Positions 9,103-31,474 of a stretch of DNA of 64,000 nt are shown here, piece after piece. Position 1 is the stretch's first letter. Each line of letters starts with the position of its first letter. This DNA is from Actinobacteria bacterium IMCC26103. Lineage in GTDB: Bacteria; Actinomycetota; Actinomycetes; Nanopelagicales; Nanopelagicaceae. Both the position numbers and the translations under genes were made by a program. Below the pieces are notes generated by a model. It was not told where the DNA came from, searched no databases, and saw only the letters and a program-made list of their open reading frames with translations. The stretch spans positions 62,001 to 126,000 of the forward strand of contig CP015604.1 of NCBI GenBank assembly GCA_002284875.1. Reading direction: 5' to 3'.

Positions 9103-9121
9103 TTTGATCTAAACTTCAAAT

Positions 9122-10866: not shown

Positions 10867-10867
10867 A

Positions 10868-11755: not shown

Positions 11756-11758
11756 TAA

Positions 11759-11794: not shown

Positions 11795-11801
11795 GTGAGA
11801 G

Positions 11802-13469: not shown

Positions 13470-13479
13470 AACGGTAGCC

Positions 13480-13597: not shown

Positions 13598-13614
13598 GAT
13601 CTTTCTATTTGGCC

Positions 13615-14385: not shown

Positions 14386-14392
14386 TTTAGTT

Positions 14393-14510: not shown

Positions 14511-14651
14511 TCATAGATGTGTAGGCACGGAAGGAACTGAGTACCTACACGTCGGCTTCAAATCCTCCGACGGTTATGTATTAATTGTGTATGCATTGTT
14601 AAATGGACGCTTGCATTCATGGTAAGTAAATGAAATCGTTTACGCACAAAC
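14511..14651. other. Non-coding spacer with two hairpins beside the tRNA copy
   Basis: No gene is visible. GTGTAGG and CCTACAC form a 7-bp stem around an 18-nt loop. Directly after it CGTCGG and CCGACG form a 6-bp stem whose loop contains TTCAAAT, reminiscent of a tRNA T-arm. This may be a further decayed tRNA relic or part of the attachment-site arm region. Confidence 0.35.
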
Positions 14652-14727
14652 TGGTGCCCCGAGTGGGGGTCGAACCCACACTGGGAGGATTTTAAGTCCT
14701 CTGTCTCTGCCATTGGACTACGGGGGC
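14652..14727 (-). tRNA. Second tRNA(UAA) copy, encoded CCA, junction of the island
   Basis: A cloverleaf can be drawn: acceptor GCCCCCG, D-stem GTC/GAC, anticodon stem GAGGA/TCCTC with loop CTTAAAA (anticodon UAA), a 5-nt variable region, T-stem GTGGG/CCCAC, discriminator A and encoded CCA. Its 3' 50 nt (14654-14703) equal those of the copy at 27582-27654, but the 5' third differs: the D-stem is changed in a compensated way, while acceptor pair 6-67 is C-C and 7-66 is G-U. This fits a recombinant attachment site with a 5' part from the element and a 3' part from the original host gene. Whether it is charged is uncertain. Confidence 0.75.
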
Positions 14728-14839
14728 GGACGGCAAATGATAAGGCTTTTACGCGTGAATGCGCTAAACGTACCCTTTTATGGATGCATTGCTGCGTAAC
14801 CATGTGCTTTAAGTGTGTCAATTGTAAATTGAAGTTGGG

Positions 14840-14855
14840 CGAATTTCGAAATTCG
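14840..14855. promoter_or_regulatory. 16-bp palindrome upstream of the integrase (candidate operator)
   Basis: CGAATTTCGAAATTCG is a perfect palindrome about 87 nt before the integrase start. Its first 14 nt recur exactly at 25440-25453, directly before the XRE-like regulator gene. A shared palindrome upstream of the integrase and the regulator suggests a common repressor site. Confidence 0.5.
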
Positions 14856-14901
14856 AAAGTCCCCTGTCTCTTTTTACTCTGTATTGAGAGCCTGTAACGA
14901 A

Positions 14902-14921
14902 ACCACCTAACCCCAGGTGGT
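14902..14921. promoter_or_regulatory. Hairpin in the integrase leader
   Basis: ACCACCT and AGGTGGT form a 7-bp stem with loop AACCCC, ending about 20 nt before the integrase ATG and just before its AAAGGA ribosome binding site. It could control integrase translation or be a protein-binding site near the attachment site. Confidence 0.4.
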
Positions 14922-14941
14922 ATTTAGCAAAGGACAACAAT

Positions 14942-16087: not shown

Positions 16088-16115
16088 CAAGCTGGATTGA
16101 GGTGGGCAGGGTCTA

Positions 16116-19100
16116 CTACGACTCAATTAACGCGATATCTTCTGCGTCCAATTTATATAGTTCGTAAACAACCCTGTCTATTTCCTTCTCAAGCTCTAGA
16201 CACTCCTTTTTGTTGTCGCCTATTTTCATAGACAATCTCGTATCTACTAAGGCTATTAATCTGTTAACTACAACTTTTGGAGCCTTCTTGAAATCAGGGA
16301 TTGGAATGGTTTCGACCGCATATTTTCTCCACTGTGTTGTTCCCATGCCCGAGCTGTTGGATATAAAGTGAAAATAGAAATTTACTACTGATGAGTTCAT
16401 TACACCTAGCAATGCTTTCAAATCGGGGCCGACTATCATCCATGAAGAATTGAGGATGTACTCGCCCTTATTTGAATAGCTAAACTTGTTTCTATCAGAG
16501 AGTTCAATCCAAATAACTTTTTCGCCTTCCATTTCCTCATAGTAAGCACAATCCCTGAGGTTCATCCAGTTAGCACCTTGGTCTCCACGACTGCGGACCT
16601 TACCTCCCAATTCTTTATCTTTACGTTCCAAGTATCGCGCTATTGAAGGGTACTGCTGAGTCACAGAAAACTCATTCTTCGTAGCAACCATCCAAGTAAC
16701 GATTGGTTTGATTTCAAAACGCGCTACATCGCGCCCCCTAATAAGAGGTTTGAGGATTTCTTGATTCTTGGGGTCATCCTTGATTAACTCATCTTTAGCT
16801 TCCGCATCAATACAAAATGCTTCATTTATTCCTGTCTTAATTCCATAAAAAATCTTATAGCCAGCATCTTTAACAAGTGGCCCTGCGATTCGAATCTTGT
16901 TTTTTACTTGTTCCGTTGCGTCATCATTAAAAGCCCAGGTTTCAGAGGTCAGCTGCGCTTGCGGCACCAAAACAGCCTCCGCATCAATCCCCTTTAGAAC
17001 CTTGAAGGTATGGCCATCTTGTGCTGGGGCGTTTTTCAACTGAATTACCCATGTGTTTGTAATTGCAGCAAAAACATGCTCGTCGCCATAATCAACTAAA
17101 TAATTGATTTCCTTCTCTTCCGCGATTAAACGCCTTAAAGATTCGCCGTAAAGTGCTCGACCATATTTCGAAGAAGTTATGTAACTCAAAACGCCTTTAT
17201 CTCTTAAGTTCGTGAATGCCAATTCAAAAAAGTAGGTATAGAGGTCTGCTGTGCTTGTAAAAAGCCCATAATCAGAAATTGCATTCTTATACTTAATTCT
17301 CTCTTGCCGCACATACGGAGGGTTGCTAATCACGACATCAAAGCCTTGATTCATTCCAAACATCTCAAACTTATCAAAGAATTCAGCAGGCTTATCTGAA
17401 TTGAATGGATGGTAGCTTAGAAGCTGGCGCACTTTGTCTGAAACTACATCAGTATGTATTTTGATGAAATCTTCATACTGACTTTGAAGTTTTTTCTTTT
17501 CTTTAGGGTCAACTGAATAGAAGTATTTAGTTTTGATATCAGCTAACTCGTCTTTGGGTTCTGTAAAGAAACCCAAAGTATCAAATTCTTCCTGCTTAAG
17601 TTTTATCAAAGAATTACAGCAAATAAAGTGAAAATCTAGATTCGGGAGTGCATCAACGCTTCCCTTCTCTTCCTGGTCGACAACAAGTGACAACCACGCT
17701 CTAAGCTTAGAAATCTCAATTGCCATGGGTTCGATGTCAGTACCAAACAATGACTTCTCTAAATAGTGCAATTTGATTGCATAAGTGTCACTTTGGCTTG
17801 TAAGTCTTTGATGAAGCTTTACTAATATTTGCAACATTCCCATAGGGAATGCACCAGAACCGCAGGCTGGGTCATAAATTCTAAGCTCTAACAACTCTCC
17901 AAGAATTTGCTTCTCGAATCCCTTCAAGGCGTCTCGTTTGCTATTAGTTCCTGAAGTGGCCCATTGCGCATCGGGAGTATCTAGCAATGCATCAATCGCA
18001 CTCAGACCCTTTGAGTTACCCACAAATTTATCTCGAAGAACGCTTCTAATTGACTCAGAGCACATGTAATTAACAATGTTTCTTGGTGTGTAAAACGCAC
18101 CTATTGCTTGACGGGCTTGGTCACCAGTGCCATCAACTTGTGTTGCAAGAAGGCTCTCAAAAACTTTGCCTAGCATCTCAGGGTCAATAGCTACTTGTTC
18201 ATACTCTGGGCTTGATTCATCCGTAGTGAAGTTATACGAATCAAAATGCTCAAATAGTCGAACGAAGTAACCGTTTGGAAAATTCAGAACAGGAGTACCA
18301 AAATGGTCATTTTCGTGAGCATCAAAAAGTCCTCCGTTCAAATAAGGGGTCTTAAGGTCTGTTGAAATCAATTCCTGTGTCCCTTTAGATATGAACTTCT
18401 TAGAATTCTTAAGAAAATTAGTTAGCTCGATAGCTCTATCATTAACTGGAGTGTTTAGAGTTAAGAAAAAAAGTGGCTCAAGACGAACGTGGTAATAATC
18501 TGTTGACTCCAGACCTTTCGTCTCAAAATAGCCTTGTTCTCTATCCAATATGTCGCGTTTCTTTAGGAACCAACAGAACAGCAGGCGACCTATTAATCTA
18601 TTTACAAATTGCTTGGAATCGGATTCCGACATTTCAGGTACCGTGGAATCAAAGTGCTGCACCAACTCCGTGAAGGCGTTTGCAACGCCAACGTAAAACT
18701 TTTCGTTTACCGCCTGCAGCTGGAATGTTCTCCAGAGCGCAGAGTGCAGTATTTCTGGTGATTTTGCGGAACGTGATTCTGCCCAAGCTGAGAAAATCTC
18801 TACTTGCGTGGCTCGCAGTCTTTCATTTAACTCAACAATTCTTAAATTACCTCGGTCCGAGAGAACTATCAGTAATGAATCTGCGTTAGCAGTTAGGAAA
18901 AAATCAACACCAACTTTATATCCTTCAGTTCTAGTAAATTCACTATCTTCCCAGTTTGGTGAGAAGTGAACACCACCAGAAATGGCAAGCTTGGATTTCT
19001 TTTGAAGCCAATAGAATTTTGCTTGAATTGGAAAAGATTCAGAGTCAACTAACTCAAAACAGCTGCGGTTACTCTTGAAAAAGGGATGAGGCTGAAACCA

Positions 19101-19292
19101 ATGGTCGTAGCGCTCTGCATTTGGCAACTGCATTTTGGTAAGTTGAATATCTTCTACGCTTTGCTCAGGTTTGCAACCAAGTAAATCTAATACAGCCAAT
19201 GATGTGGCTAGGCCGCTTTCTAGGGTTCGACTCTGAAATTGGTCACGAATTGCTTGGTCTAGAGCCCTTAGCTCTGCTGTCTTAAGAGACAT
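16116..19292 (-). CDS. Eco57I-type N6-adenine DNA methyltransferase (DrmMI/PglX-like)
   Basis: A 1058-residue class I SAM-dependent DNA methyltransferase. A large N-terminal region (1-400) precedes YTPR at 401-404, a usual landmark before the catalytic domain. SAM motif I is DPACGSG (474-480) and catalytic motif IV is NPPYVRQE (657-664), the adenine-N6 signature. The last 250 residues are probably target recognition. Size and layout resemble type IIG, BREX PglX and DISARM DrmMI enzymes. It overlaps the helicase upstream by 11 nt, so the two are translated together. Likely role: protective methylation of host DNA or participation in restriction. Confidence 0.9.
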   Translation of the reverse strand: MSLKTAELRALDQAIRDQFQSRTLESGLATSLAVLDLLGCKPEQSVEDIQLTKMQLPNAERYDHWFQPHPFFKSNRSCFELVDSESFPIQAKFYWLQKKSKLAISGGVHFSPNWEDSEFTRTEGYKVGVDFFLTANADSLLIVLSDRGNLRIVELNERLRATQVEIFSAWAESRSAKSPEILHSALWRTFQLQAVNEKFYVGVANAFTELVQHFDSTVPEMSESDSKQFVNRLIGRLLFCWFLKKRDILDREQGYFETKGLESTDYYHVRLEPLFFLTLNTPVNDRAIELTNFLKNSKKFISKGTQELISTDLKTPYLNGGLFDAHENDHFGTPVLNFPNGYFVRLFEHFDSYNFTTDESSPEYEQVAIDPEMLGKVFESLLATQVDGTGDQARQAIGAFYTPRNIVNYMCSESIRSVLRDKFVGNSKGLSAIDALLDTPDAQWATSGTNSKRDALKGFEKQILGELLELRIYDPACGSGAFPMGMLQILVKLHQRLTSQSDTYAIKLHYLEKSLFGTDIEPMAIEISKLRAWLSLVVDQEEKGSVDALPNLDFHFICCNSLIKLKQEEFDTLGFFTEPKDELADIKTKYFYSVDPKEKKKLQSQYEDFIKIHTDVVSDKVRQLLSYHPFNSDKPAEFFDKFEMFGMNQGFDVVISNPPYVRQERIKYKNAISDYGLFTSTADLYTYFFELAFTNLRDKGVLSYITSSKYGRALYGESLRRLIAEEKEINYLVDYGDEHVFAAITNTWVIQLKNAPAQDGHTFKVLKGIDAEAVLVPQAQLTSETWAFNDDATEQVKNKIRIAGPLVKDAGYKIFYGIKTGINEAFCIDAEAKDELIKDDPKNQEILKPLIRGRDVARFEIKPIVTWMVATKNEFSVTQQYPSIARYLERKDKELGGKVRSRGDQGANWMNLRDCAYYEEMEGEKVIWIELSDRNKFSYSNKGEYILNSSWMIVGPDLKALLGVMNSSVVNFYFHFISNSSGMGTTQWRKYAVETIPIPDFKKAPKVVVNRLIALVDTRLSMKIGDNKKECLELEKEIDRVVYELYKLDAEDIALIES

Positions 19293-22200
19293 AGAAAAGA
19301 ACCGCCTCTACCGATTCAATTGTTCTTTCCTCTGGTTTAGCATCAACCAATTCTTTTTGGAGGGCAACGAACGACTCCAATGTGTTTGGAAGTAGCTGAC
19401 CAAAACCTTTAAGTTCACGATTAGCAGACATAAAAAGTTGCTCGGTCTTGCGGAGCTGCTGCTTTGTCGAAATATTCTTCAAGGCAAGCGATAGGCCTAA
19501 ACCAGGAAGTGCACTTGCTAAGTTATCTAGAATTTTAATTTTTGTGGGAGTTAAACGAACCACAGACTGGCCATCTTTTGCTTCTTCTTTAGATGCCGCT
19601 TCAACTAACTTCTTTACGAGATTCCGATTGAAATCAAAATTATCAAACTTGCTTTTAGAATTCGCCGCCGTGCACTTAATGTATCCAAGGGCTTCAATAA
19701 TATCGACGGCATCCACCATATAACCAGACTCGGGGTCAGCTTCTATGAAGAAATGGGACTTGAAATCTTTTCCAGTGCTTTCGACGAAGCCAGTTGTCTC
19801 CGTAAGTGACAAAATCCTACTTGAAGCTGCTTTGGAGTCAGAAGGCAGATGCCCCCATTTACCGAGTGGGATTTCTTTGACACGCTTAACTTGTTCGGGA
19901 GTTGCGGACGACAAGAATCTTCGAAGTTCGATTATGAATTCATCTTCACTCAGAAGTTCATCATCATCATCAAATTTATCTAAAACTTCAGACGAATTGG
20001 GGTCTCGGTACATTCCTAAGACTTCGTTGAGTGTTTCGTCTTCTTCAAATCCATCAAGGAATTCGATTGGATTTTCTGCCTCACCAAGAACTGATTGGTC
20101 TGTTCCAATAGTGAACTTAATTGCATCAATTTTTCTTTCAAGACGATTTACCAGCTTTAAATATGAATCTAGAACAGTTTCTGGGTGCAAGTTATAAATA
20201 AAAACACTTTCGTATTCCGAACCTAAACGATTTATGCGACCATTACGTTGAATCATACGAACAGGATTCCAGTGCAAGTCATAATTGATTAAGTTGCCAC
20301 AATCTTGAAGGTTTTGACCTTCGGAAAGTACGTCCGTAGCAAACAGAAAATCAATCTCTTCACTCTTCGTAACGCCTGAGTTTGTTGATTTGGGAGAGAA
20401 TCGCTTAACAGTATCTTCGAGAAGCGTTCTATTAGAACCTGATAGGAAGGCGGACTTACTAGCGAACTCTTTATCCTTAATTAGCTCTGGGAGGCGCTTT
20501 TCTAAGTAATTAATAGTGTCTGTAAAATAGCTAAACAGAAGAATCTTTTCTCCCGCTTTCTTATTTTTGCGAATATTGATTATCAATTCCACAAGCGAAT
20601 TGAGTTTGTCATCGTGCTTATCTAGAACTTCGCAGCATTCTTGAATGGTTGCAATTATCTTTTTATCACGTTGAATATCAGCCTTCATCTGAGAAATCTT
20701 GTACTTATCTTCGGAAGCTGGAATAAGTTCGATGTCGAGAGTATCGCGCACTTGTTCTTCAGACCAACTAGAGATGTCTTCTCCAAACTCCTTTTCAATC
20801 TGATTAATATCTCGAATATTCGCTATAAGACCCTCGCCAAGATACTTTTCAAACTTGTCTAATCGTTTTAAATATTGAGCCATCGAAAGACTTAATGCAG
20901 CTTGTGACGACTCTAGACGTTTCAAGAAAGTTACTCGCATGATGTTGTGAATACTCATCTGACTTCGAAGCCTAAATGACTCATCTGATGCAATATCGAA
21001 CTCTCTTAGTTCCTCGTTTGTTTTTCCATAGTATTGATTTAGATAAGTAGAAGATTTATACGGAGTAAACCCAAGTAACAGAATGAGGCGGAATACTTTT
21101 TCGAAAACTCCTGAGTCGCTATCTACATTTCCCTCTTCCATTAAGTCTAGTGGGTGCTTAGTGCGCTGTGTTTGATTTAGCAAAGTCTCGAGGTTTACAA
21201 ATCTTGGGTCTTTTCCTTCGAAAGTTTTAATGTTCCTCGCAATAACGCTGTCTACCTCTGTGGCTAGTGCATCCGTATATTCATAGGGATGACTTTTAAC
21301 TTCGCTCTTAGGAAATTTTGTAAGAGTTCCATCATCGCTTAATAGTCCGCCATATTCCGCTTCAATTCCTCGACGGGTAGTTCGAACTAAAAAGTGGCGT
21401 AATCCTTGTCTCATAATTCGACTGATTCGATTGAAGTCAATCTTCTCGCCTTTGTTTTCTGCCGTTTGCATATCCGCGGTGAGGCGTTTAACTGCCTCAA
21501 AGAAGTCGATTACTTCACGTTTTTTAGAAGTTGGATAAACCACTGGGAATGCGGCTAAACGACCCTTCGCAGCGAGTTGTATCTGGTTAACAAAGTCGGT
21601 TAATTTATTGTTGATTGGGGTTGCAGTAAGCATCAAAACATGACTTGATGGATTGTTGCTAAACCAATCAAGTAGCTGCTCATGTCGTGACCCATTTGGG
21701 TTTCTCAAGTTATGGGCTTCGTCAATCACGAAAAGGTCTACATCTGCATATTTATCAATATCTCTGACGCGTTCAATTTCTTGAAAATCTTGCATACTTA
21801 TAACTTCAAATCCTGAAACCAGATTGTGGACTTTTGCCAGGTCTCGCTTCCAAGGTTGAACAAGTGAGGCAGGAACTATCACATAAATTCTTCTCGCCTT
21901 ATATGTATCAATGTATTCCTTGATGACAGCGCCAGCAGTAATAGTTTTACCCAACCCAACAGAGTCGGCCAACATTGCTACGCCATACTTCTGGAGTTTT
22001 TGAATTAGAAGTCGTGCATTTCTTTGTTGGAATGCAAATAATGTTGAGCTTGTAGATTCTGCTATCGTGGTAGAGATATCAACTTCCTCGTGATACAGCT
22101 CCCAAAGGGTTTTCATGTACATCTCGTAAGGTGTGAAGCACTTTTTTCCTAGTGGGCTTTCCGCGATTATCTGGCTGAATTCACCATTCCAATCTTCAGA

Positions 22201-22803
22201 AAGTTCATCAGCCCATATCTCTTCAAACCAACTCAGGTGTCCGTGTTGGTCTTCTTTTGACTCTGGCTTGTACTTGACTATGCGACTTTCATCCTCAAGA
22301 GCATTCAGCTCAGTATTTGTTGTTAATCCTGCGCCCGTGAAATTGGAAGAACCGATAATCCCTACTGCGTCAGAATTTGAAGAATTTGAAAATATATATG
22401 TTTTCGCATGTAAGAAGGCTCCTCGATAAACTTTTACTTCTACTTTTCCACTCTCAATATGCTTATTCAATTCTTCTGCGGTGTTAACTAATGACATCTC
22501 AAACTGAGTATGGGTTAAATCCCATTTCAAGTCTGCTTCTGGAAAATCAGTAGTTAGTTCCTGCTTTAAGGCTTTCTGAAACCTTGCTCGCATCGGTTCT
22601 TGTCCGATTAGAATTCTGATTTTTTTATATTGGGCAATGTGAGGCATCAAGGCGCTCATACCTTTCAAGTCCCAATATCCTGTTGCGATAGAAATCTGGT
22701 CAAAATTGGGCGACAGTTCTTCAAGGACGCTGAGGAGAGTTCTCCGACGGTTGTCTATGACTTTGGGATACGCCACGCCTGCCCCCCTCGTAAACTGATT
22801 CAA
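19282..22803 (-). CDS. PLD-nuclease/SNF2 helicase fusion (defence effector)
   Basis: A 1173-residue protein. A phospholipase-D-like domain occupies about residues 20-165, with HxK at 132-134 (LHAKTYIF) and GSSNFTGAGL after it. A SNF2/DEAD-like ATPase follows, with Walker A DSVGLGKT (280-287), DEAH at 361-364, LMLTATP, and a helicase C-terminal half with FATDVLSEGQNLQD and RMIQRNGRINRLG. The single HxK suggests a dimeric PLD active site. Helicase plus PLD plus adjacent methyltransferase is typical of ATP-dependent phage defence. The TTG at 22803 is the outer limit; GTG at 22776, after GAGGGG, is an equally good start. Confidence 0.9.
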   Translation of the reverse strand: MNQFTRGAGVAYPKVIDNRRRTLLSVLEELSPNFDQISIATGYWDLKGMSALMPHIAQYKKIRILIGQEPMRARFQKALKQELTTDFPEADLKWDLTHTQFEMSLVNTAEELNKHIESGKVEVKVYRGAFLHAKTYIFSNSSNSDAVGIIGSSNFTGAGLTTNTELNALEDESRIVKYKPESKEDQHGHLSWFEEIWADELSEDWNGEFSQIIAESPLGKKCFTPYEMYMKTLWELYHEEVDISTTIAESTSSTLFAFQQRNARLLIQKLQKYGVAMLADSVGLGKTITAGAVIKEYIDTYKARRIYVIVPASLVQPWKRDLAKVHNLVSGFEVISMQDFQEIERVRDIDKYADVDLFVIDEAHNLRNPNGSRHEQLLDWFSNNPSSHVLMLTATPINNKLTDFVNQIQLAAKGRLAAFPVVYPTSKKREVIDFFEAVKRLTADMQTAENKGEKIDFNRISRIMRQGLRHFLVRTTRRGIEAEYGGLLSDDGTLTKFPKSEVKSHPYEYTDALATEVDSVIARNIKTFEGKDPRFVNLETLLNQTQRTKHPLDLMEEGNVDSDSGVFEKVFRLILLLGFTPYKSSTYLNQYYGKTNEELREFDIASDESFRLRSQMSIHNIMRVTFLKRLESSQAALSLSMAQYLKRLDKFEKYLGEGLIANIRDINQIEKEFGEDISSWSEEQVRDTLDIELIPASEDKYKISQMKADIQRDKKIIATIQECCEVLDKHDDKLNSLVELIINIRKNKKAGEKILLFSYFTDTINYLEKRLPELIKDKEFASKSAFLSGSNRTLLEDTVKRFSPKSTNSGVTKSEEIDFLFATDVLSEGQNLQDCGNLINYDLHWNPVRMIQRNGRINRLGSEYESVFIYNLHPETVLDSYLKLVNRLERKIDAIKFTIGTDQSVLGEAENPIEFLDGFEEDETLNEVLGMYRDPNSSEVLDKFDDDDELLSEDEFIIELRRFLSSATPEQVKRVKEIPLGKWGHLPSDSKAASSRILSLTETTGFVESTGKDFKSHFFIEADPESGYMVDAVDIIEALGYIKCTAANSKSKFDNFDFNRNLVKKLVEAASKEEAKDGQSVVRLTPTKIKILDNLASALPGLGLSLALKNISTKQQLRKTEQLFMSANRELKGFGQLLPNTLESFVALQKELVDAKPEERTIESVEAVLFYVS

Positions 22804-23012
22804 ACCTTACGAAACTTCACTGACAAAACGACCGCCAGTTATCCACAGTCATGTCCAAACTTAACCTAATGCGAACTGGGATTTAGTGATTTCCTGCTCG
22901 CGTTCATCCTTAAAACAGCAATGCGAGCGCTTTTTAGCAAACCGAGCCGATTTCATAAGGATAAATAAAGGTGCAGCCCTTTGTTGTCCATGGATGCCTC
23001 CATTCGGTCGAT
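22804..23012. promoter_or_regulatory. Upstream region of the helicase-methyltransferase operon
   Basis: No long gene fits in these 209 nt. On the plus strand TTATCCACA (22839-22847) matches the DnaA-box consensus exactly, 36 nt from the helicase start; a single box may be chance. A 32-codon minus-strand frame (start ATGAAATC near 22960) lacks a ribosome site and is not called. The promoter of the operon should lie here. Confidence 0.35.
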
Positions 23013-23183
23013 TTACTTCGCTCCACCCTCCCAAGTTGGAGTTGAAAGCATCCTGATTAATTGAGCAAATTTTAATTGGTCATCAATATTCGGGGCATGT
23101 TTAGGTAAATATGTGCCACTCCTAGCTTTCAATGTATAACTCTTAAACTGTGAATTAATTACCTTCACCTTTATCCAATCCAA
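23013..23183 (-). CDS. Possible 56-residue small protein or gene remnant
   Basis: A minus-strand open frame from TTG at 23183 to TAA at 23013. Its composition looks protein-like, with LKARSGTYLPKHAP and LKFAQLIRMLSTPTWEG segments. A stop codon lies five codons before the TTG, and no Shine-Dalgarno precedes it, so it may be the tail of a decayed gene. It lies upstream of the helicase and on the same strand. No family recognised. Confidence 0.3.
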   Translation of the reverse strand: MDWIKVKVINSQFKSYTLKARSGTYLPKHAPNIDDQLKFAQLIRMLSTPTWEGGAK

Positions 23184-23376
23184 ATCAGCTACTGCATTTT
23201 ATTATTACTGTGATTCTGGCCGCGTGACCAGGTTTCCACAGACTTTTTGTATATTGATTCTCTAACAGGACTTTTCTAGTCAAATTCGCCTGCTATTCAT
23301 GGCAGAAATTAAAGCTAGCAAGGTCACTTTCCGTTTTTATGGCTTGTACAAACATCTTGTTAGTAACTAAGTAAGA
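23184..23376. other. AT-rich spacer without a supported gene
   Basis: These 193 nt between the 63-residue HTH gene and the small frame contain no convincing coding region. GTTTCCACA near 23231 is only a weak DnaA-box-like sequence. A 20-codon minus-strand frame (MFVQAIKTESDL) was not called. Confidence 0.3.
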
Positions 23377-23568
23377 CTATTGAACAACTACTATCTGTTG
23401 ACCTCTACGGCTTAAATATTCTTTAACGTGCTGCGCTGTGAATCTGCGATTTCTTCCAACTTTGATTGAATCAATTTCATTTCGACTAATCAGGCTATAA
23501 ATCGTCCCTCTTGAGACATGAAGGTAGTCAGCAACTTGATTTGGGGTATACAGGGAAGGCATATCCAT
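23377..23568 (-). CDS. Excisionase-like helix-turn-helix protein, 63 residues
   Basis: A compact HTH_17/excisionase-family DNA-binding protein. Residues 5-50 contain LYTPNQVADYLHVSRGTIYS, the usual winged HTH start, then KVGRNRRFTAQHVKEYL. In integrative elements such proteins act as recombination directionality factors or small repressors. ATTGAGGAGTAATAATGG on the coding strand gives a clear ribosome site. It could pair with the integrase even though it lies about 8 kb away. Confidence 0.82.
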   Translation of the reverse strand: MDMPSLYTPNQVADYLHVSRGTIYSLISRNEIDSIKVGRNRRFTAQHVKEYLSRRGQQIVVVQ

Positions 23569-23639
23569 TATTACTCCTCAATAGATTTTGGAGTTCAATG
23601 GTGGCATTTAATGAACATCTTGTATCGGTAAACTCAATA

Positions 23640-24308
23640 TTAAGTACCCCAAATGCGAGAGCCAAACATTGTGTACTGATGATTCCATTCTCGCCATGTG
23701 ACCATGTCTGAAGTATCGCTATGAGTCCAGCACATACAGGGTCGAGAATGGATTCTGTAGCCACAACCAAGACAAACAGTTATTAATTCGCCAGGCTGAG
23801 GCGCAAGACCCACCCAAGGCTTAATCGATTTGTAGTAACGTTTTTCTGTTCTGGCTCCAAGTTTTGGGGACTCGTGAGTGTAAATACCGATTCGATACAA
23901 ACGCTCAGAAATCGCTACGGGTGTTCGATGGTGAATGTCTGCAATTTCATCCAGGGTCATTCCAGCATCAAATTCTGCCTTTAATTGTTGTTCTTCGTTA
24001 GGGGTCCATTTAGACCAAGCATTTGGGCGTTGCTGCTTTATCTCCAATTGATAATCGAGGCTTTTCTGTGCCATTACAACTGGGGTCTCCTCATCTAGCT
24101 GAGGGATGCTTAAGCCGCTTATTTCAGAGCAAGGCCACTCTGCAATTATTTCGTTTTCATAAGTTATAAATCGAGCTGTATCTAAGTCATATTCCATAAG
24201 CTCTGCAATTATCCAGTGTTTGGTGCTTAAGTATTTGTCACCATCCTGAAGGTCTTTCCCTAGGATTGGCTGTTTAAAAGTGATGCTTACTTTGCATTGT
24301 CTTAACAA
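23640..24308 (-). CDS. Hypothetical protein with Myb-like HTH and C-terminal Cys/His cluster
   Basis: A 222-residue protein of unknown function. The middle carries a helix-turn-helix-like segment, SKWTPNEEQQLKAEFDAG followed by MTLDEIADIHHRTPVAISER. The C-terminal part has a cysteine/histidine cluster (VCLGCGY, HSRPCMCWTH) that could bind zinc. TTG at 24308 is chosen because ACAGGAG lies 6 nt before it; the longer frame to 24386 runs into hairpin-rich DNA. It belongs to the minus-strand island genes upstream of the defence operon, so regulation or a DNA-binding accessory role is possible. Confidence 0.65.
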   Translation of the reverse strand: MLRQCKVSITFKQPILGKDLQDGDKYLSTKHWIIAELMEYDLDTARFITYENEIIAEWPCSEISGLSIPQLDEETPVVMAQKSLDYQLEIKQQRPNAWSKWTPNEEQQLKAEFDAGMTLDEIADIHHRTPVAISERLYRIGIYTHESPKLGARTEKRYYKSIKPWVGLAPQPGELITVCLGCGYRIHSRPCMCWTHSDTSDMVTWREWNHQYTMFGSRIWGT

Positions 24309-24336
24309 TTTATTCTCCTGTTCGTTTCTTTTTATT

Positions 24337-24445
24337 CTCGCCGTTAGGCGAGCCATCGCCCCGCAGGGGCGTTTTGTTAATTGCAAACAAATTCATCCTT
24401 GTGTTTAGAGCGCCTGCGGCGCATTCCCCGCCTAGCGGCGGGAAT
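24337..24445. other. Array of four short GC-rich hairpins
   Basis: Four tight stem-loops lie within 110 nt: CTCGCC-GTTA-GGCGAG (24337-24352), CGCCCC-GCA-GGGGCG (24357-24371), GCGCC-TGC-GGCGC (24410-24422) and CCCGCC-TAGC-GGCGGG (24427-24442). The second is followed by TTTTGTT on the plus strand, like a terminator, though no plus-strand gene ends here. The array forms the leader of the gene at 23640-24308. Possible roles are attenuation, protein-binding sites or a small structured RNA. Confidence 0.6.
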
Positions 24446-24879
24446 GAAAAACAAAAGAAGAAACTGAAAGTTTTGTGATAGAGCTATTCCCCCTGCAAAA
24501 AAATAGGACGCTATCTACTTTTTCACTTGGGAAACTTCTCGGATGATTATTTGGAAAGTTCTGACAAGTAATTAGCTGGTCAACAGGACTAGGGATAAGT
24601 AGATGACTCCGCTCTTATTAAAAAGAACCTATGTGTCTGATGCTCCGAGTCTGCCTTTACGCATGGGTCATCTACGCGGTAATCCCTATTGAGAGTCTCT
24701 TCACTCTCTCCTACTCCAGCTGGGCGAAGGCCGTGTCAGTACTTTTTTTACTACGGCTCTGCTTCCCCGTAGAACTACTCGTTGCCAATCAGTAACACAA
24801 TTACCTGACTGCGCTATTTAGTTGTTTGTATTCAGATTAGGTCAAGAAGCCTCTTTTGTAAGCCTAAACCTTGCAGAAT
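24446..24879. other. Non-coding region with a long imperfect inverted repeat
   Basis: No gene is supported across these 434 nt. TAGGGAT (24590-24596) plus GTAGATGAC (24599-24607) can pair with GTCATCTAC (24667-24675) plus ATCCCTA (24682-24688). This gives 16 bp in two helices with an asymmetric internal loop and a 59-nt apical region. A second stem, CTACGG/CCGTAG, lies around 24751-24772. This could be a structured RNA, an origin or transfer site of the island, or regulatory DNA. Confidence 0.45.
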
Positions 24880-25146
24880 TTATGGGGCGTACACATCTCG
24901 TAGTTCGCTCCCCAAGTGCCTAATAAAATGCCTACCTTCGATGCTTATTGCAAAAATCCAGTGGTAGCTAGCCTCGTCGGAGACCTTATGTACTGAGATT
25001 AATTCTTCTCTAAGTAACTCCTCTATCGCTTTGTTTATGTCATAGACATCTTCAGTCACTTTGCGGTGTATTTTTTCTCGTGTTATTTCATGTTCTTCTA
25101 GTGCGACAAAGATGAGGACTTTGAGCGCTACACCAGAAATATTCAT
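24880..25146 (-). CDS. Small putative winged-helix protein
   Basis: An 88-residue acidic protein. ITREKIHRKVTEDVYDINKA followed by IEELLREELISVHKV has the rhythm of a winged helix, so a regulatory role is a guess. It starts with an ATGA overlap (4 nt) with the upstream HTH gene, which argues it is real and translationally coupled. No family recognised. Confidence 0.6.
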   Translation of the reverse strand: MNISGVALKVLIFVALEEHEITREKIHRKVTEDVYDINKAIEELLREELISVHKVSDEASYHWIFAISIEGRHFIRHLGSELRDVYAP

Positions 25147-25343
25147 TGCTTACCCCCTTTGAATAAGATTTCTGTATCGCTCTTTGGCAGGCTTGCTAAG
25201 GTTTGAATGCTCTCTTCTGGAATCCGAACTGCACGACCTAGGCGTTTCGAGTAAAGCTCGCCAGTCATTGTCATGCGGTAAACCTTGCTCTCGCTGAGGC
25301 TGAGGCGCTTCGCCGCCTCTTTAACTGTTATGAGGGAAGACAT
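25143..25343 (-). CDS. Excisionase-family DNA-binding protein, 66 residues
   Basis: A small MerR/excisionase-type HTH protein: ITVKEAAKRLSLSESKVYRM near the start, then GELYSKRLGRAVRIPEESI. The ATG at 25343 is preserved behind AAAGGAGACTTC, a very good ribosome site; the longer upstream frame is rejected. It is divergent from the XRE-like regulator and cotranscribed with the 88-residue protein. It is a candidate recombination directionality factor, alongside the 63-residue protein at 23377. Confidence 0.82.
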   Translation of the reverse strand: MSSLITVKEAAKRLSLSESKVYRMTMTGELYSKRLGRAVRIPEESIQTLASLPKSDTEILFKGGKQ

Positions 25344-25439
25344 GAAGTCTCCTTTCGAATAATCTGGTGTGTGCCAGAGACGTCTGGTGACGCCCAGGAA
25401 TAGATTGACGCACCACATAAAAAAGTCTCAGGGGTCTTT

Positions 25440-25453
25440 CGAATTTCGAAATT
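25440..25453. promoter_or_regulatory. Candidate operator before the XRE-like regulator
   Basis: CGAATTTCGAAATT, with perfect palindromic core AATTTCGAAATT, ends 9 nt before the regulator's start codon and abuts its GAGG ribosome site. The same 14 nt are at 14840-14853 upstream of the integrase. A protein bound here could block the regulator's own synthesis and the divergent excisionase-like operon. Confidence 0.5.
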
Positions 25454-25462
25454 GAGGTTCTT

Positions 25463-26509
25463 GTGAAGCAGGGTAAAAAGTTAGTTGAGCGTCCAATTCG
25501 CGACGTAACCATCAATTCCCTTGTTCGTGCGAACATCCACGCTCTACTCCGAGACCGAGCATTAAGAGACAAGGCATTCATAAAGCACGGAAGAAATTGC
25601 TTAATGGTCCTTCGAAGTACCTACAAAGGTCATCAGAACTTTGACGAATATATTGATATTGATGAATGGCTATCAGGTCGAAACCCTGACAGATGGAGTC
25701 GCAAAAACTTTGGAGAGTGGTCTGGGGTTGGTCCAGAACGCATGAACAGACTCCTAGATGATAGGAGCGAGCGCAAACCACAGAACCCTGACCTAGTGGA
25801 TTTAATGAAGATTGCTAAGGCGTTCAATATCCCTTATGGATTCTTGTTTTACCCAACGCGTCAGCAGCTCGAGGAAAATGCCCTTCTTCGAATACAGGAC
25901 TTCTTCCCACCTTTAGAAATAAGTGCAGTGCAATGGATGGCATGGGCAGGTGGCTTATCGGTTTTGCCAGGAATGGATGCTGTAGCTGCGAACTTTAATT
26001 CCCTAACGTTGACAACTTCACCTATGCCAGGATTTACAAATGAAGACATACAACCCATCGCAGATACTCAAGCACCTTTAGATTTGCATGAGACAAGAAG
26101 AATTACGGACTCCCTAAGTTCTGATACTTCTGCTGCTTTTGAGGCCATGGCGGGTAACCCATTTTCACAATCTGCTGGAGAGCAAATTCCATTCGATAAT
26201 TCCCATTTGCAGGAATTTGCAATTCAAAAGGCAAAGTTTGTGGCTTTACTGTTGCATGATGTCCGTGAGGCTTTTTATCTAACAGCAGATGAAGCTCGAC
26301 TAACAATAGCCTCAACTGATATCCAAAATTCACTCAATAAGATTCAGCAAGACCTGGCAGTACTCGCACTAAATGTTGATACAGACCTCAAATCAGCAAC
26401 TGGACCACTAACTAAGGCGCATCTAATTGGAGTCCTGGAGCTCATGTGTATGAAACTGGAAAACATCGACCTCGAATGGACTCAGGACCGAACTGCAGTC
26501 ATAAAATAG
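25463..26509 (+). CDS. XRE-like transcriptional regulator of the island
   Basis: A 348-residue protein. Residues about 78-133 look like a cro/C1-type helix-turn-helix: RKNFGEWSGVGPERMNRLLD, then DLVDLMKIAKAFNIPYGFLF. The long C-terminal part has no recognised domain. Start is GTG with GAGG 5 nt before it, immediately downstream of the shared palindrome. Divergent from the two small DNA-binding genes, it is the best candidate for the island's master repressor, by analogy with phage and ICE control regions. Confidence 0.7.
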   Translation: MKQGKKLVERPIRDVTINSLVRANIHALLRDRALRDKAFIKHGRNCLMVLRSTYKGHQNFDEYIDIDEWLSGRNPDRWSRKNFGEWSGVGPERMNRLLDDRSERKPQNPDLVDLMKIAKAFNIPYGFLFYPTRQQLEENALLRIQDFFPPLEISAVQWMAWAGGLSVLPGMDAVAANFNSLTLTTSPMPGFTNEDIQPIADTQAPLDLHETRRITDSLSSDTSAAFEAMAGNPFSQSAGEQIPFDNSHLQEFAIQKAKFVALLLHDVREAFYLTADEARLTIASTDIQNSLNKIQQDLAVLALNVDTDLKSATGPLTKAHLIGVLELMCMKLENIDLEWTQDRTAVIK

Positions 26510-26680
26510 GCCCTCAGTCCCTTAAAAGACACACATGCGAGCGCAATTCCCAGCTCCATTTGAATGATTTGATGTCAGGCCTCCAGATTAAGGTGTTGTC
26601 GTTAATAAAGAATGCCTGAGATGTAGCGGTGACACTTCATTAAGGCAATAATTTGGGTATCTCTTGGGGGGCGACGGCTA
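26510..26680. other. Short spacer, nothing supported
   Basis: No gene, tRNA or strong inverted repeat is seen. GGGGGG at 26665-26672 is the ribosome site of the next gene. Confidence 0.4.
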
Positions 26681-26884
26681 ATGGTTAGTGATGCTTGGGT
26701 AAAGTTCAATAAGACTCATCATGACTCAACAGAAACTATTGAGGTTGATGGCGTCAAGAAGCTCCATTGGAAGTGTTCATGCGGCGCGGAAAATATCTTC
26801 CCCGCAAATTCTGGCTGGGTAGTAGGTTCCAAAGTTAATTGGCGAAATCATTTTGAATCGCTTAAGCGGGAGGGGAAAATCTAA
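26681..26884 (+). CDS. Hypothetical 67-residue protein with a CxC motif
   Basis: A short basic protein with KLHWKCSCGAENIF in the middle, which could be half of a zinc ribbon, and NWRNHFESLKREGKI at the end. A run of six Gs precedes the ATG. Its stop codon overlaps the start of the nuclease-like gene by one base (TAATG), so the two are coupled. No family recognised. Confidence 0.6.
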   Translation: MVSDAWVKFNKTHHDSTETIEVDGVKKLHWKCSCGAENIFPANSGWVVGSKVNWRNHFESLKREGKI

Positions 26885-27363
26885 TGACTGTTGACAAGTC
26901 TCTTGTCGGAGCAGCAGGCGAGCATTTAGTGCTATCGCGACTTCTATCTCGAGGTTTGTTGGCGTCCCAGGCACCCAGAGGAACTAGAAAAGCAGATATT
27001 TTAGTAAATCCATTAGATGGAGGCCGCCCCGTCTTAATTCAAGTTAAGACGACCTCTGGCTCAAAAAGTAGAGTCGGATGGCACATGAATGTTAAACATG
27101 AATCCATTACCGACAAAGATTTGTTCTACTGCTTTGTAAATCTTGGTGAGATATATCCATCGGTCTACGTCGTTCCTGCAGCAATTGTTGCAAAGGTGAT
27201 TAAAACTGGGCATGCAAAATGGCTTAAGACTCCTGGTGCAAAAGGGCAAGAGCACAACGACAGCGATATGCGAAGAATAAGTAACACTCCTCGACTTGAG
27301 AATCGATATGCGCCTTCTGGCTGGATGGATAAGTACTTGGAAAATTGGGAGTCATTGATTTAA
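26884..27363 (+). CDS. PD-(D/E)XK-like nuclease domain protein
   Basis: A 159-residue protein. The N-terminal 60 residues show the PD-(D/E)XK order: helix with Glu (GAAGEHLVLSRLL), Asp on a strand (KADILV), then QVKT on the next strand (LIQVKTTSG). This fold occurs in restriction enzymes, Holliday-junction resolvases and DUF4365-like proteins. Coupled to the 67-residue Cys protein, it is the last gene before the tRNA boundary. A DNA-cleaving defence or recombination role is inferred. Confidence 0.65.
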   Translation: MTVDKSLVGAAGEHLVLSRLLSRGLLASQAPRGTRKADILVNPLDGGRPVLIQVKTTSGSKSRVGWHMNVKHESITDKDLFYCFVNLGEIYPSVYVVPAAIVAKVIKTGHAKWLKTPGAKGQEHNDSDMRRISNTPRLENRYAPSGWMDKYLENWESLI

Positions 27364-27580
27364 GTTCGGCTACTGCCTAAGAATTGAATTAGTTTCTGGG
27401 CATGAGACCTGGTGCGATAGTTGATTGGAAGAGACTTAACCTTGGGGGTGTGTCATTTGGTGTGCTAAACACCGTCACAAACCAAGCTAAACGAGGATAA
27501 AACTTTCCCTTGATGTTGTCAGTGGTTTACTTCATAATATGTTTTGCAGGCTCAAAACTACATATTGATGCACTTATCAA
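27364..27580. other. Spacer next to the attachment site
   Basis: No gene is supported. GGTGT-GCTAA-ACACC forms a small hairpin near 27460. This segment is the element-side flank of the tRNA junction and may hold integrase arm sites. Confidence 0.35.
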
Positions 27581-27581
27581 G

Positions 27582-27654
27582 TGCCCCGAGTGGGGGTCGA
27601 ACCCACACTGGGAGGATTTTAAGTCCTCTGCCTCTGCCATTGGGCTATCGGGGC
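27582..27654 (-). tRNA. tRNA with anticodon UAA (tRNA-Leu by codon), short variable arm
   Basis: A perfect 7-bp acceptor (GCCCCGA/TCGGGGC), D-stem GCC/GGC, anticodon stem GAGGA/TCCTC with loop CTTAAAA (anticodon at tRNA positions 34-36 is UAA), T-stem GTGGG/CCCAC with TTCGACC, discriminator A, no encoded CCA. The variable region is only CCAGT. Leucine tRNAs normally have a long variable arm, so the cloverleaf is unusual for Leu, although A73 and the anticodon fit Leu. It lies beyond ppx and the UDG gene and is the target of repeated integration. Confidence 0.85.
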
Positions 27655-27665
27655 CATGCGAAGTG

Positions 27666-28376
27666 TCAGAGTCTACTTGCTTTTTTAATTACAGAATCCA
27701 ACATCTTTTCCGTTAATTTACCTGTAAATGTGTTCTGTTGGCTCGGATGATAACTTCCGACAATCTTGCGTTTGATCCCATCTGGGCCGATAAATGTAGC
27801 TGTGGCTCCATGGCCAAACTTTGGTTTCGGCTTTGGGATTTCGCAATCTAATTCAGCAAGAGTTGAAAGCAGCGTTGTCCAAGCAAGATTGCCGAGGGCA
27901 AGGAATGAACGTGCAGTTGGCATCAAAAGAGCAATTTCATCCTTATAGAAAGGTGCGCAAGTATTTTTCTCTTCGGTGCTGGGTTTGTTATCAGGAGGCG
28001 CGCAACGTACGGCACAGAGAATGCGGGTATTAATTAATTGTTGGCCATCATCTTTACTTTTGCTGGTAGCGATCTTGGCAAGGCCATTTTTATGAAGTGA
28101 TTTATAGAGCCAGTCGCCTGATGAATCACCCGTGAATACTCTTCCGGTGCGATTGGCACCATGTGCACCAGGAGCAAGGCCAAGAATAACTAACTGCGCA
28201 TTTGCAGGTCCAAAACCTGGAACAGGCTTGCCCCAGTACTTTTCGTTTTCATAAGCCTTGCGTTTAACAACTGCTACTTCTTCACGCCACTCAACAAGCC
28301 TTGGGCATTTCTTGCATTTGATGATTGCTGAATCCAAGAGGTCTAACGATTTATACAAGCGACCAAGCCATTCCAT
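27666..28376 (-). CDS. Uracil-DNA glycosylase, family 5 (UdgB-like)
   Basis: A 236-residue DNA repair enzyme that removes uracil and related deaminated bases. Motif A is LGLAPGAHGANRTGRVFTGD, lacking the polar catalytic residue of family 1 as in UdgB, and the second motif is GSYHPSQQNTFTG. Cysteines CKKCPRL near the start, then CAVRCAPP and the Cys of NTCAPF, fit the family's 4Fe-4S cluster. ATG at 28376 is used because the longer frame would overlap ppx heavily; it still overlaps ppx by 26 nt. Last gene of the eno-ppx operon before the tRNA. Confidence 0.9.
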   Translation of the reverse strand: MEWLGRLYKSLDLLDSAIIKCKKCPRLVEWREEVAVVKRKAYENEKYWGKPVPGFGPANAQLVILGLAPGAHGANRTGRVFTGDSSGDWLYKSLHKNGLAKIATSKSKDDGQQLINTRILCAVRCAPPDNKPSTEEKNTCAPFYKDEIALLMPTARSFLALGNLAWTTLLSTLAELDCEIPKPKPKFGHGATATFIGPDGIKRKIVGSYHPSQQNTFTGKLTEKMLDSVIKKASRL

Positions 28377-29259
28377 CGAGAATATCTGATTCAGATGCAA
28401 CGAATTCGGTGGCACCTGTTGCGCGCATGATGCGCGAGAGAACGAGTGAACCTGCAGAAATAACATCAACCCGGCCTGGATGCATGTAACCAAGTGATTC
28501 GCGTTGGGTGCGATCCATTTTGATAAATGCTTGCGATACTTGATGAACTTTTTCAGCTGGTATATGTGAGAGATGAATGGCATATCTGTCGTATTCGGGA
28601 AGATCTAACGCTGCGGCCGCAACCGTTGTTGCAGTGCCTGCTACTGCGATCAGAGTCTTAGCTTGAGTAATCGGGACTAACTTGGCAGCTTGTGCAATTG
28701 CTTCATCTATATCTTCAGTTGCTGCAGCTACTTGTCCCGGATCTGGAAGATCGCCCGTGAAATGGCGCTCTGACATGCGAACACAACCGATATTTACGCT
28801 CTTGGCTGCTGCAACGGAATCGGTGCCAAACACGAATTCCGTGGAACCGCCACCGATATCAACGACTAAAAAAGGGCCATCTGATGCAGGTAGATCTTTA
28901 GTTGCTCCCATAAAAGAGAGGCGCGCTTCTTCATCACCTGAGATAACTTCGGGGCGAATTCCTAAACGCTCGAAGACGCCTTCGATAAATAGATCGCGAT
29001 TGGTGGCATCACGGGTGGCGCTGGTGGCGCAGAAGCGAATCTTCTCAACGCCGCGTTTAGCAATTTCTGCGGCATAGATATCAACTGCAGCTAACGTGCG
29101 CGCGATCGCATCTGGGTGAAATTGCCCAGTTTTATCAACGCCTTGTCCTAAGCGGACTACTTCCATCAAGCGAATTACTTCGCGAAAGTTCGTGCCATCA
29201 ATATCGGCAATTAGTAGACGAATTGAATTGGTACCGCAATCAATGGCTGCTACTCGCAT
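28351..29259 (-). CDS. ppx: Ppx/GppA phosphatase family protein
   Basis: About 302 residues with the actin-like ATPase fold: phosphate 1 motif AAIDCGTNSIRLLIADID and phosphate 2 motif VDIGGGSTEFVFG. This length matches short actinobacterial Ppx proteins, which act as exopolyphosphatases or pppGpp hydrolases. The ATG at 29259 starts directly at the conserved domain; the longer start at 29277 adds only six residues. It overlaps DUF501 upstream by 10 nt. Confidence 0.9.
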   Translation of the reverse strand: MRVAAIDCGTNSIRLLIADIDGTNFREVIRLMEVVRLGQGVDKTGQFHPDAIARTLAAVDIYAAEIAKRGVEKIRFCATSATRDATNRDLFIEGVFERLGIRPEVISGDEEARLSFMGATKDLPASDGPFLVVDIGGGSTEFVFGTDSVAAAKSVNIGCVRMSERHFTGDLPDPGQVAAATEDIDEAIAQAAKLVPITQAKTLIAVAGTATTVAAAALDLPEYDRYAIHLSHIPAEKVHQVSQAFIKMDRTQRESLGYMHPGRVDVISAGSLVLSRIMRATGATEFVASESDILDGMAWSLV

Positions 29260-29741
29260 GGCTCGCTCTTCCACCATTTCGGTAATTTTGCTAAAGCTTC
29301 ATCGCCGAGCGGATTAACGCCGGGTCCTGCTGAGAGTGAATGTGCAACTAGCGAATGTAAACATTTAACGCGGTTGGGCATACCACCGGCGGAAATGCCT
29401 TCTACTTCTGGCACATCCATCTTTAGCGCAGCGCGCGCGGCTAGGTAATCATCATGTGCTGCTGCATATTGGCCAGCTAATTCGTGATCGGTTGTAAGTC
29501 GCTCATTCATATCGGCCATTAAGCCCGTTGATTCAAGTGTTGAAATTGCCGCCGTTAAACGTGGGCAGGTTGCGTAATAGAAAGTTGGAAAGGGCTCGCC
29601 ATGGCTTAAACGTGGTGGGGTTTCAACGACTGCGGGATTGCCACAAGGACAGCGATAAGAAATTGCGTGTACTTCACGCGGAGTACGACCCAATTGAACT
29701 TCGATGCAATCTAAATCTTTTTGTGTTGCTTTATCGCTCAT
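29250..29741 (-). CDS. DUF501 domain protein
   Basis: A 163-residue protein of a family found almost entirely in actinobacteria, always near eno, ftsB and ppx. Typical segments are LGRTPREVHAISYRCPCGNP, FPTFYYATCP and GGMPNRVKCLHSLVAH. The cysteines CPC, CP and CLH may bind a metal. Function unknown. It lies 3 nt from ftsB upstream and overlaps ppx downstream. Confidence 0.93.
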   Translation of the reverse strand: MSDKATQKDLDCIEVQLGRTPREVHAISYRCPCGNPAVVETPPRLSHGEPFPTFYYATCPRLTAAISTLESTGLMADMNERLTTDHELAGQYAAAHDDYLAARAALKMDVPEVEGISAGGMPNRVKCLHSLVAHSLSAGPGVNPLGDEALAKLPKWWKSEPCE

Positions 29742-29744
29742 AGA

Positions 29745-30170
29745 TTAAAGGCCAGATTCAGTTACGGATGCGATCAGCTTGGTATACCAAGGAGCACCTT
29801 CCGGAAGTTGCTTGGCTACTTGAGTTGTTTGTGGTTCGGCTTGGGTAATTTCAGAACCGGTAACTATGTATTGGCGCTCCCCTGGCATAACAAAGTGCAG
29901 ACGCTCGCGCGCTTGTGATTTAACATAATTTGGATCTTGCCAAGTGCTTAGCTCAGCGCGTGCTTTTTCTAGCGCAGTGCGATCGGTTGCAACTTGAGAT
30001 TTAAGTGCGCTGATCTGAGCGCGTTGGGTGAAGTAATTCTTAATCGGTGGCGCAAGGGTCAAGGTAAAGATAAAGATAATTGCGATTAGCGCTAAAGGGC
30101 GAGCGTTTCCACGCGTACGACGGCTCGACGAACGACGGTTAGATGAGTAACTGCGACGTCGTCGGCGCAT
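29745..30170 (-). CDS. ftsB: FtsB/DivIC family septum formation protein
   Basis: A 141-residue bitopic cell-division protein. A very basic cytoplasmic N-terminus (RRRRRSYSSNRRSSSRRTRG) precedes one membrane segment (LALIAIIFIFTLTLAPP), then a coiled coil (about 50-85) and the FtsB-type end YVKSQARERLHFVMPGE. It probably works with FtsL and FtsQ at the septum. Start ATG is 14 nt from enolase; same operon. Confidence 0.9.
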   Translation of the reverse strand: MRRRRRSYSSNRRSSSRRTRGNARPLALIAIIFIFTLTLAPPIKNYFTQRAQISALKSQVATDRTALEKARAELSTWQDPNYVKSQARERLHFVMPGERQYIVTGSEITQAEPQTTQVAKQLPEGAPWYTKLIASVTESGL

Positions 30171-30184
30171 GGCTTAGCTCTTAA

Positions 30185-31474
<1,290 letters not shown>

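Follow-up and report, generated by a model that had tools for sequence, protein, structure and literature searches.

A class I-bodied tRNA-Leu(UAA) as the probable UUA reader of an actinobacterial genome and the apparent attachment site of stacked islands

Leucine tRNAs are taught as class II molecules, and genes that lack the long arm are on that ground suspected of being misannotated. In the passages available, two reviews place leucine tRNAs in class II (PMC7609411, PMC9976931). A tRNA gene with a UAA anticodon and a short variable region, located in a 64,000-nucleotide stretch of the genome of Actinobacteria bacterium IMCC26103 (hereafter the window), raises the question of what such a gene is. 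The original prediction had left two answers side by side, one being a conserved atypical leucine tRNA and the other a tRNA with a different identity. The evidence supports the former: the gene is very probably the UUA-reading leucine tRNA of the cell, with an inherited class I body and with a 3′ part that serves as the attachment site of tyrosine-integrase islands. The gene and its candidate promoter element are the following.

27582–27654, minus strand: tRNA-Leu(UAA) with a class I body; also att1, the apparent attachment site on the host-promoter side of the island array (ARAGORN, Rfam, synteny)
27670–27675, minus strand: TAGACT, a candidate −10 box of the tRNA, overlapping the end of an upstream ORF presumed to be uracil-DNA-glycosylase-like

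In the window, ARAGORN called a tRNA-Leu(taa) at 27581–27654 on the minus strand, and the Rfam match to RF00005 at 27582–27654 scored 58.9 bits against a gathering score of 29. On the minus strand, the acceptor stem is GCCCCGA/TCGGGGC, the D stem GCC/GGC, the anticodon stem GAGGA/TCCTC with the loop CTTAAAA and the anticodon UAA, and the T stem GTGGG/CCCAC, followed by the discriminator A73. Standard pairing was found at 20 of 20 stem positions, which bears out the near-perfect cloverleaf described originally; the UAA anticodon, class I body, 5-nt variable region and A73 were likewise confirmed by ARAGORN, Rfam and sequence reading. The variable region, CCAGT, has 5 nt, within the 4–5 nt that together with a canonical cloverleaf define class I and below the variable arm of at least 10 nt that defines class II. 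A hidden long arm was rejected, as none could be drawn from the sequence and none appeared in the computed fold; a folding model with a long arm, named beforehand as evidence against the reading, was thus unobtainable. The minimum-energy fold of −31.7 kcal/mol was matched by 0 of 200 dinucleotide shuffles (z-score −3.30) and recovered the acceptor, anticodon and T arms, with the D region paired otherwise than in the cloverleaf.

In a set of 100 different UAA tRNAs with the short arm, pairing was intact in 1994 of 2000 stem cells (99.7%) and two-sided changes occurred at 17 of the 20 stem pairs, indicating that the cloverleaf is under selection. Compensatory changes maintain the stems of the short form. 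In addition, the gene is predicted to be expressed. Read by eye, the corresponding position holds TAGACT or TAGATT in 12 of 14 relatives and TAAACT or TAAATA in the other two; a consensus promoter scan did not pick the candidate −10 box at 27670–27675. A point absent from the original prediction is that A73 is followed by CTT, and CCA is therefore not encoded by the gene; an encoded CCA is also missing from many other tRNAs of the same genome (ARAGORN on loci).

The distribution of the short form was surveyed in 148 genomes of the class (taken as Actinomycetes from the named hits) using a pattern that runs from the D loop to the T loop. A UAA match was present in 89 of the 148 genomes, 79 of them short (18 families) and 10 long (8 families), and a CAA match in 117, 80 short and 37 long; matches were missing in 59 and 31 genomes, respectively, and the pattern survey is therefore no census. 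In these counts, one degenerate second match in G152 was left out of the UAA types, G044 with two CAA matches was counted once, and G032 was counted as short. The UAA leucine tRNA of G032 (C44:28571–28615) has an 8-nt variable region and stands between both classes. Among the 71 genomes typed for both anticodons, both tRNAs were short in 41, only the UAA one in 21, only the CAA one in 8 and neither in 1. A short UAG tRNA was found in at least seven of the 59 genomes examined for CUN anticodons (G025, G035, G037, G058, G065, G073 and G099), and convincing short CAG or GAG forms were absent among the matches listed from these 59 genomes.

Outside the class, a phylum-wide draw of 149 genomes gave at least 11 short UUR matches, the other real ones among the matches listed being long. 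Moreover, a separate scan of genome contigs with a pattern that fits only the form with a 6-nt variable region returned 86 stretches, of which 80 were listed. The carriers among these 80 included Knoellia, Janibacter, Terrabacter, Microbacterium, Micrococcus lylae, Gordonia asplenii and Mycobacterium sp., together with a few records labelled Chloroflexi, Anaerolineae, Microthrixaceae or Nitriliruptoraceae. The Mycobacterium locus L129 and the Gordonia locus L184 gave no match to any of the six window genes used in the search. Three loci with Chloroflexi or Anaerolineae labels (L130, L182 and L190) also hold a short UAA tRNA with none of the six genes nearby. In E. coli genomes the tRNA had no BLAST match. 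In the favoured reading, the class I body has been inherited, is common in Actinomycetes and does not reflect gene decay; the form is frequent across a class to which soil and medical genera belong, and phages of distant hosts carry it as well.

Among 50,697 phage records, 90 match the tRNA at 27582–27654. All 10 tRNA-bearing phage records that were opened, from four host groups and chosen because they matched, contain a short leucine tRNA. The anticodon is UAA in cyanophage P-RSM6, Pseudomonas phage ZC03, Acinetobacter phage 313, Rhodococcus phage Trina, Streptomyces phage Genie2 and a faecal phage, CAA in Erwinia phage phiEa21-4, Salmonella phage SE5 and Corynebacterium phage StAB, and UAG in Lactobacillus phage ATCC 8014-B2; Acinetobacter phage 313 also has a short UAG tRNA, and ZC03 and Trina also carry a long leucine tRNA, which in ZC03 is Leu(UAG). 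These phage tRNAs (P-RSM6, ZC03, Acinetobacter phage 313, phiEa21-4 and others) have the same body and signature as the chromosomal gene but, unlike it, sit beside other tRNA genes on phage genomes. Depositors annotated tRNA-Leu in P-RSM6, ZC03, Acinetobacter phage 313 and phiEa21-4, and as some such genes are thus already public under that name, the genes themselves are not new. In the open-licence literature, no text was found that treats leucine tRNAs with a UUR-reading anticodon and a short arm as a general feature of actinobacteria or phages. Furthermore, a scan of viral contigs with a pattern for the short form gave at least 120 stretches, and ARAGORN recognized 105 distinct short and 67 long UAA genes in 203 viral loci, a ratio that is meaningless because both viral patterns were chosen by us.

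The short body is linked to the pair 12–23. C12-G23, C13.A22 and A15-U48 occur in all 113 full-length short cellular sequences, many of which came from a pattern that fixes base 23, and five of the six entries parsed as long have G12-C23, the sixth (L106) being a misparse. Where the pattern left base 23 free, as in the 148-genome survey, G was read by eye in all 79 short UAA matches and C in all 10 long ones. Similarly, among 61 distinct CAA stretches, G23 is present in 34 of 34 short and C23 in 27 of 27 long ones. Non-UAA leucine tRNAs from viral loci have G12-C23 in all 26 long cases, and their nine short cases divide into five C-G, three G-C and one A-T. The 12–23 switch is strong in cells and not absolute in phages. 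Loss of the arm would have been accompanied by this switch from G-C to C-G, and C12-G23 probably permits a class I-like packing of the core.

It is a serious possibility, although one that we would not quite back, that short-armed leucine tRNAs are many independent truncations of long ones and not one anticodon-changing mobile lineage. UAA and CAA arm types combine differently inside families f4, f9, f17, f24 and f26, which speaks for separate events, as does the G12-C23 kept in 6 of 114 short viral sequences, three of them among the nine that were not pattern-fixed. Separate truncations are harder to reconcile with C12-G23 and C13.A22 being common to 113 of 113 cellular short sequences, UAA and CAA, and with C12-G23 in 106 of 114 viral short ones, UAA, CAA and UAG taken together. 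We tentatively propose that the class I-bodied leucine tRNAs (UAA, CAA and UAG; C12-G23, C13.A22, A15-U48) may be one mobile lineage, present in phages across phyla and changing its anticodon, that repeatedly replaced the long UUR leucine tRNAs of Actinomycetes, the 12–23 switch being the structural price of arm loss. If this proposal is true, the class II rule for bacterial leucine tRNAs fails for a large part of a major class; the further question is raised of whether tRNA body types are exchanged via phages.

The surroundings of the gene were then compared with those of related loci. The original prediction had placed the gene beyond ppx, at a position where actinobacteria often carry a leucine tRNA, and this position is indeed conserved. 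All 14 relatives fetched have ppx, DUF501, ftsB-like and eno upstream of the tRNA; of 80 loci found by pattern, 43 have a ppx match no more than 4 kb from the short UAA tRNA, 30 of these with both on one strand. The uracil-DNA-glycosylase-like ORF (27666–28583), between ppx and the tRNA, was matched in 10 of the 14 relatives, and a YccA-like match was found in 53 of the 80 loci. The names ppx, DUF501, ftsB-like, uracil-DNA-glycosylase-like and YccA-like are those that we take these ORFs to deserve, while the enolase name came from the analysis. Two features had escaped the original prediction altogether, namely a second UAA copy and a role of the gene as a mobile-element attachment site. The relevant features of the window are listed from the host genes upstream of the tRNA to the gene that marks the empty site.

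28351–31465, minus strand: upstream host genes ppx, DUF501, ftsB-like and eno
14728–27581: island 1 (att2 to att1), with integrase, type IIG restriction-methyltransferase, PLD-SNF2 helicase and other ORFs
19282–22803, minus strand: PLD-SNF2 helicase
16116–19292, minus strand: type IIG restriction-methyltransferase
14942–16087, plus strand: tyrosine integrase (PF00589), adjoining att2
14655–14727, minus strand: att2, second tRNA-Leu(UAA) copy, chimeric (ARAGORN, alignment)
11795–14654: island 2 (att3 to att2), with two ORFs of at least 100 aa and, next to att2, a noncoding block also present in L101 and L106
11757–11794, minus strand: att3, 38-bp tRNA 3′ fragment identical to att1, including TT after GGGGCAC
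9103–11756: island 3 (att4 to att3), with an OMPdecase/HUMPS-family protein, a zinc alcohol dehydrogenase and a xylose-isomerase-like TIM barrel
9074–9102, minus strand: att4, 29-bp tRNA 3′ fragment with one mismatch
7764–8516, minus strand: YccA-like gene, marking the empty site

The 3′ part of the tRNA is present four times on one strand, at 27581–27654, 14654–14727, 11757–11794 and 9074–9102. In six of the 14 relatives (L098, L104, L105, L108, L109 and L110), the YccA-like gene lies directly behind the tRNA, and from this arrangement we infer that the window consists of inserted DNA between about 8.6 and 27.58 kb. This insertion of about 19 kb would comprise three stacked segments and about 0.5 kb beyond the last fragment. 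The marks of a tRNA island are present, with a tyrosine integrase near an end, 3′ repeats at the far ends (att2, att3 and att4) and an empty site in relatives; an integrase was not seen in islands 2 and 3. In addition, an island in the relative G152 (L106) carries a homologous integrase and ends in a tRNA fragment on its distal side, and G007 contains four tRNA pieces within 7.2 kb of one contig. The locus at 27582–27654 appears to be an attachment site behind which islands accumulated, with excision and integration by the integrase being predicted. Each island insertion would regenerate the tRNA on the promoter side and leave a copy of its 3′ part at the far end, so that islands would come to be stacked between the tRNA and the YccA-like gene.

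Islander-type tRNA islands with a tyrosine integrase, as described in the accessible part of one report (PMC4383910), share the integrase near an end, the regenerated tRNA and the displaced 3′ fragment; the present array differs in that the far copy att2 is full-length and chimeric and in that three segments are stacked. A similar use of the tRNA may extend further. Mycobacterium abscessus prophage prophiGD02-2 has a stretch that matches nucleotides 29–73 of the tRNA (84%), and Rhodococcus phage REQ2 has one, beside its integrase, that matches nucleotides 30–73 (89%); a homologous tRNA is therefore probably an attachment site more widely. The exact att core was not found in viral contigs.

As to cargo, the locus marks a hotspot on a small chromosome at which islands with defence and metabolic genes appear to have collected. 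The adjacent type IIG restriction-methyltransferase and PLD-SNF2 helicase are likely a phage-defence pair carried by island 1; the best PADLOC matches in 16116–22803 (minus strand) were REase_MTase_IIG and HKD+Snf2. Two tRNA 3′ fragments flank the three metabolic genes of island 3 (9122–11755, plus strand), which make up a small cargo segment. The noncoding block at about 14330–14650, downstream of att2 and likewise of the L101 and L106 tRNAs, holds a reverse-oriented copy of the tRNA D-arm region (window 14470–14493, plus strand), and in L101 and L106 this copy is similar to the tRNA allele of the respective genome. A search of 14200–14740 with Rfam at E up to 1 returned the tRNA and nothing else.

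The copy att2 required separate consideration. Its first 42 nt are identical to L046 and L047, and its 3′ part is this genome's own; the joining of another allele's 5′ part to the native 3′ part has left a C.C mismatch at acceptor pair 6–67. These features suggest that the attachment site of the arriving element comprised a complete tRNA, and att2 itself is probably an attachment-site copy. That att2 is instead a functional extra tRNA delivered by the island, and more than an attachment-site product, seems unlikely: although it is full-length, carries CCA and took its 5′ part from another allele, its acceptor stem combines the C.C at 6–67 with a G.U at 7–66, its fold is weaker (z-score −1.81 vs. 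−3.30 for att1), and a TAGACT-like motif was not seen upstream.

The gene at 27582–27654 was assessed as a reader of UUA. The genome is a single contig of 1,456,516 bases with 38 tRNA matches in Rfam. ARAGORN, run on loci covering the Rfam matches, found a UAA anticodon only at 27582–27654 and in the defective copy at 14655–14727. A loose UAA pattern, which allowed a short or long arm and required C32, gave 13 hits in the genome, and the tRNA-like ones were these two copies; a class II UAA tRNA elsewhere in the genome was rejected on these 13 hits. The genome-wide listing of UAA tRNAs that had been proposed as a check thus leaves 27582–27654 as the only intact one found, and the short form as the only reader found for a common codon, UUA accounting for 150 of 642 leucine codons in ten window genes.

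The meaning of this codon was evaluated in 205 alignments of six window proteins with 80 loci found by pattern. Residues opposite UUA were leucine in 580 of 781 cases, 553 of these 580 leucines being written CUC or CUG in the related loci, and leucine was the top residue at 19 of 25 UUA sites. In the same alignments, leucine made up only 8–19% of residues opposite Val(GTT), Ile and Phe codons. In a comparison of Mfd with M. tuberculosis Mfd, UUA sites corresponded to leucine in 13 of 27 cases, with 3 for the next residue, whereas other leucine codons matched leucine more often (42 of 55).

The tRNA itself carries A14, A15-U48, G18G19, A20a and A73, a set that occurs together in no non-leucine tRNA found in the genome. 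E. coli LeuRS requires A73, A15-U48, G18G19 and A20a, with the long arm being dispensable, according to the part of the review available (PMC9976931). One gene in the genome scores above the TIGR00396 cut-off for LeuRS, and we take those with weaker scores to be related class I synthetases. The single LeuRS would thus charge both body types, recognizing the present tRNA through A73 and the D-loop/T-loop core (A14, A15-U48, G18G19, A20a); the recognized elements are presumably those common to short and long leucine tRNAs, so that a long arm would not be required. In the same genome Leu(CAA) is short and Leu(UAG) and Leu(GAG) are long; the tRNA-Leu(CAA) at G000 1103208–1103280 (L062) has a short variable region and A15-U48. 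These tRNAs offer a natural test of which tRNA parts LeuRS needs and of how the cell separates leucine and serine tRNAs.

Another identity, such as a class I tRNA with a mutated anticodon that inserts a non-leucine residue at UUA, is very improbable. Its appeal lies in the class I body without a long arm and in a human precedent, a gene with a Leu(CAA) anticodon and no long arm that, in the excerpt available, turned out to be Met-like (PMC8450103). The core comparison cuts both ways. Over 66 core columns, the nearest gene in the genome is Leu(CAA) at 68%, followed by Cys, Lys, Tyr and Thr tRNAs at 62–65%, while the long Leu(UAG) (55%) and Leu(GAG) (52%) rank 17th and 21st of 37, an order that counts against common descent with the long leucine tRNAs. 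Trees from these 66 columns are too weak to tell one short lineage from several or to point to its source, FastTree splitting leucine from other tRNAs with a support of only 0.378 and IQ-TREE placing Cys, Tyr and Gln(CUG) inside the leucine group. Nevertheless, A15-U48 together with A20a, G21, A22 and A73 is confined to leucine tRNAs among those found in the genome, and the 580 of 781 aligned leucines strongly disfavour any other residue. The branch of the original prediction that allowed for another identity therefore gained no support, the identity set being restricted to leucine tRNAs here and the residues aligned with UUA being mostly leucine, and the conserved atypical leucine tRNA stands on its being the only intact UAA tRNA found, on UUA aligning with leucine, on the identity elements and on the wide occurrence of the form.

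Equally improbable is a reading in which the gene, as an attachment-site copy, is decayed or silent and a working UUA tRNA lies elsewhere. In its favour, the locus is an integration site, CCA is not encoded and the sister copy at 14655 has a defective acceptor stem; against it, neither Rfam nor the loose pattern found another intact UAA tRNA in the genome, all 20 stem pairs are standard with compensatory changes across short UAA sequences, and orthologues occupy the same place in relatives without islands. A pseudogene reading was rejected on the loose-pattern search and the stem conservation.

The leucine tRNA at 27582–27654 can be set beside several known ones. Class II bacterial tRNA-Leu(UAA), of which we take Streptomyces bldA to be an example, has the same anticodon, decoding role and A14/A15-U48/G18G19/A20a/A73 set, but a long arm and G12-C23 in place of the 5-nt variable region and C12-G23 found here. 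Mitochondrial tRNA-Leu(UUR) likewise accepts leucine without a long variable arm, with its identity set by A73 and A14 in the portion of the review available (PMC9976931); it is organellar with a partly unfolded anticodon branch, whereas the bacterial short tRNA has all its stem pairs. A tRNA-Leu(TAG) of a mycobacterial cluster also combines an actinobacterial leucine anticodon with a short variable loop, and differs, as far as the available text goes, in its anticodon and in belonging to an accessory tRNA cluster beside a normal isoacceptor (PMC6582537), while the present gene is the only UUA reader found. The accessible part of an M. tuberculosis MenT3 study lists tRNA-Leu-2, -3 and -5 as those with long variable loops (PMC11541572), a wording compatible with short loops in others but not an explicit statement of them. 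Lastly, G73 is present in 11 of the 113 short sequences (10 clear and one of ambiguous parse), mostly from Phycicoccus and relatives; this base, present in L119, L125, L128, L138, L142, L143, L147, L152, L165 and L167, is unexpected for leucine identity.
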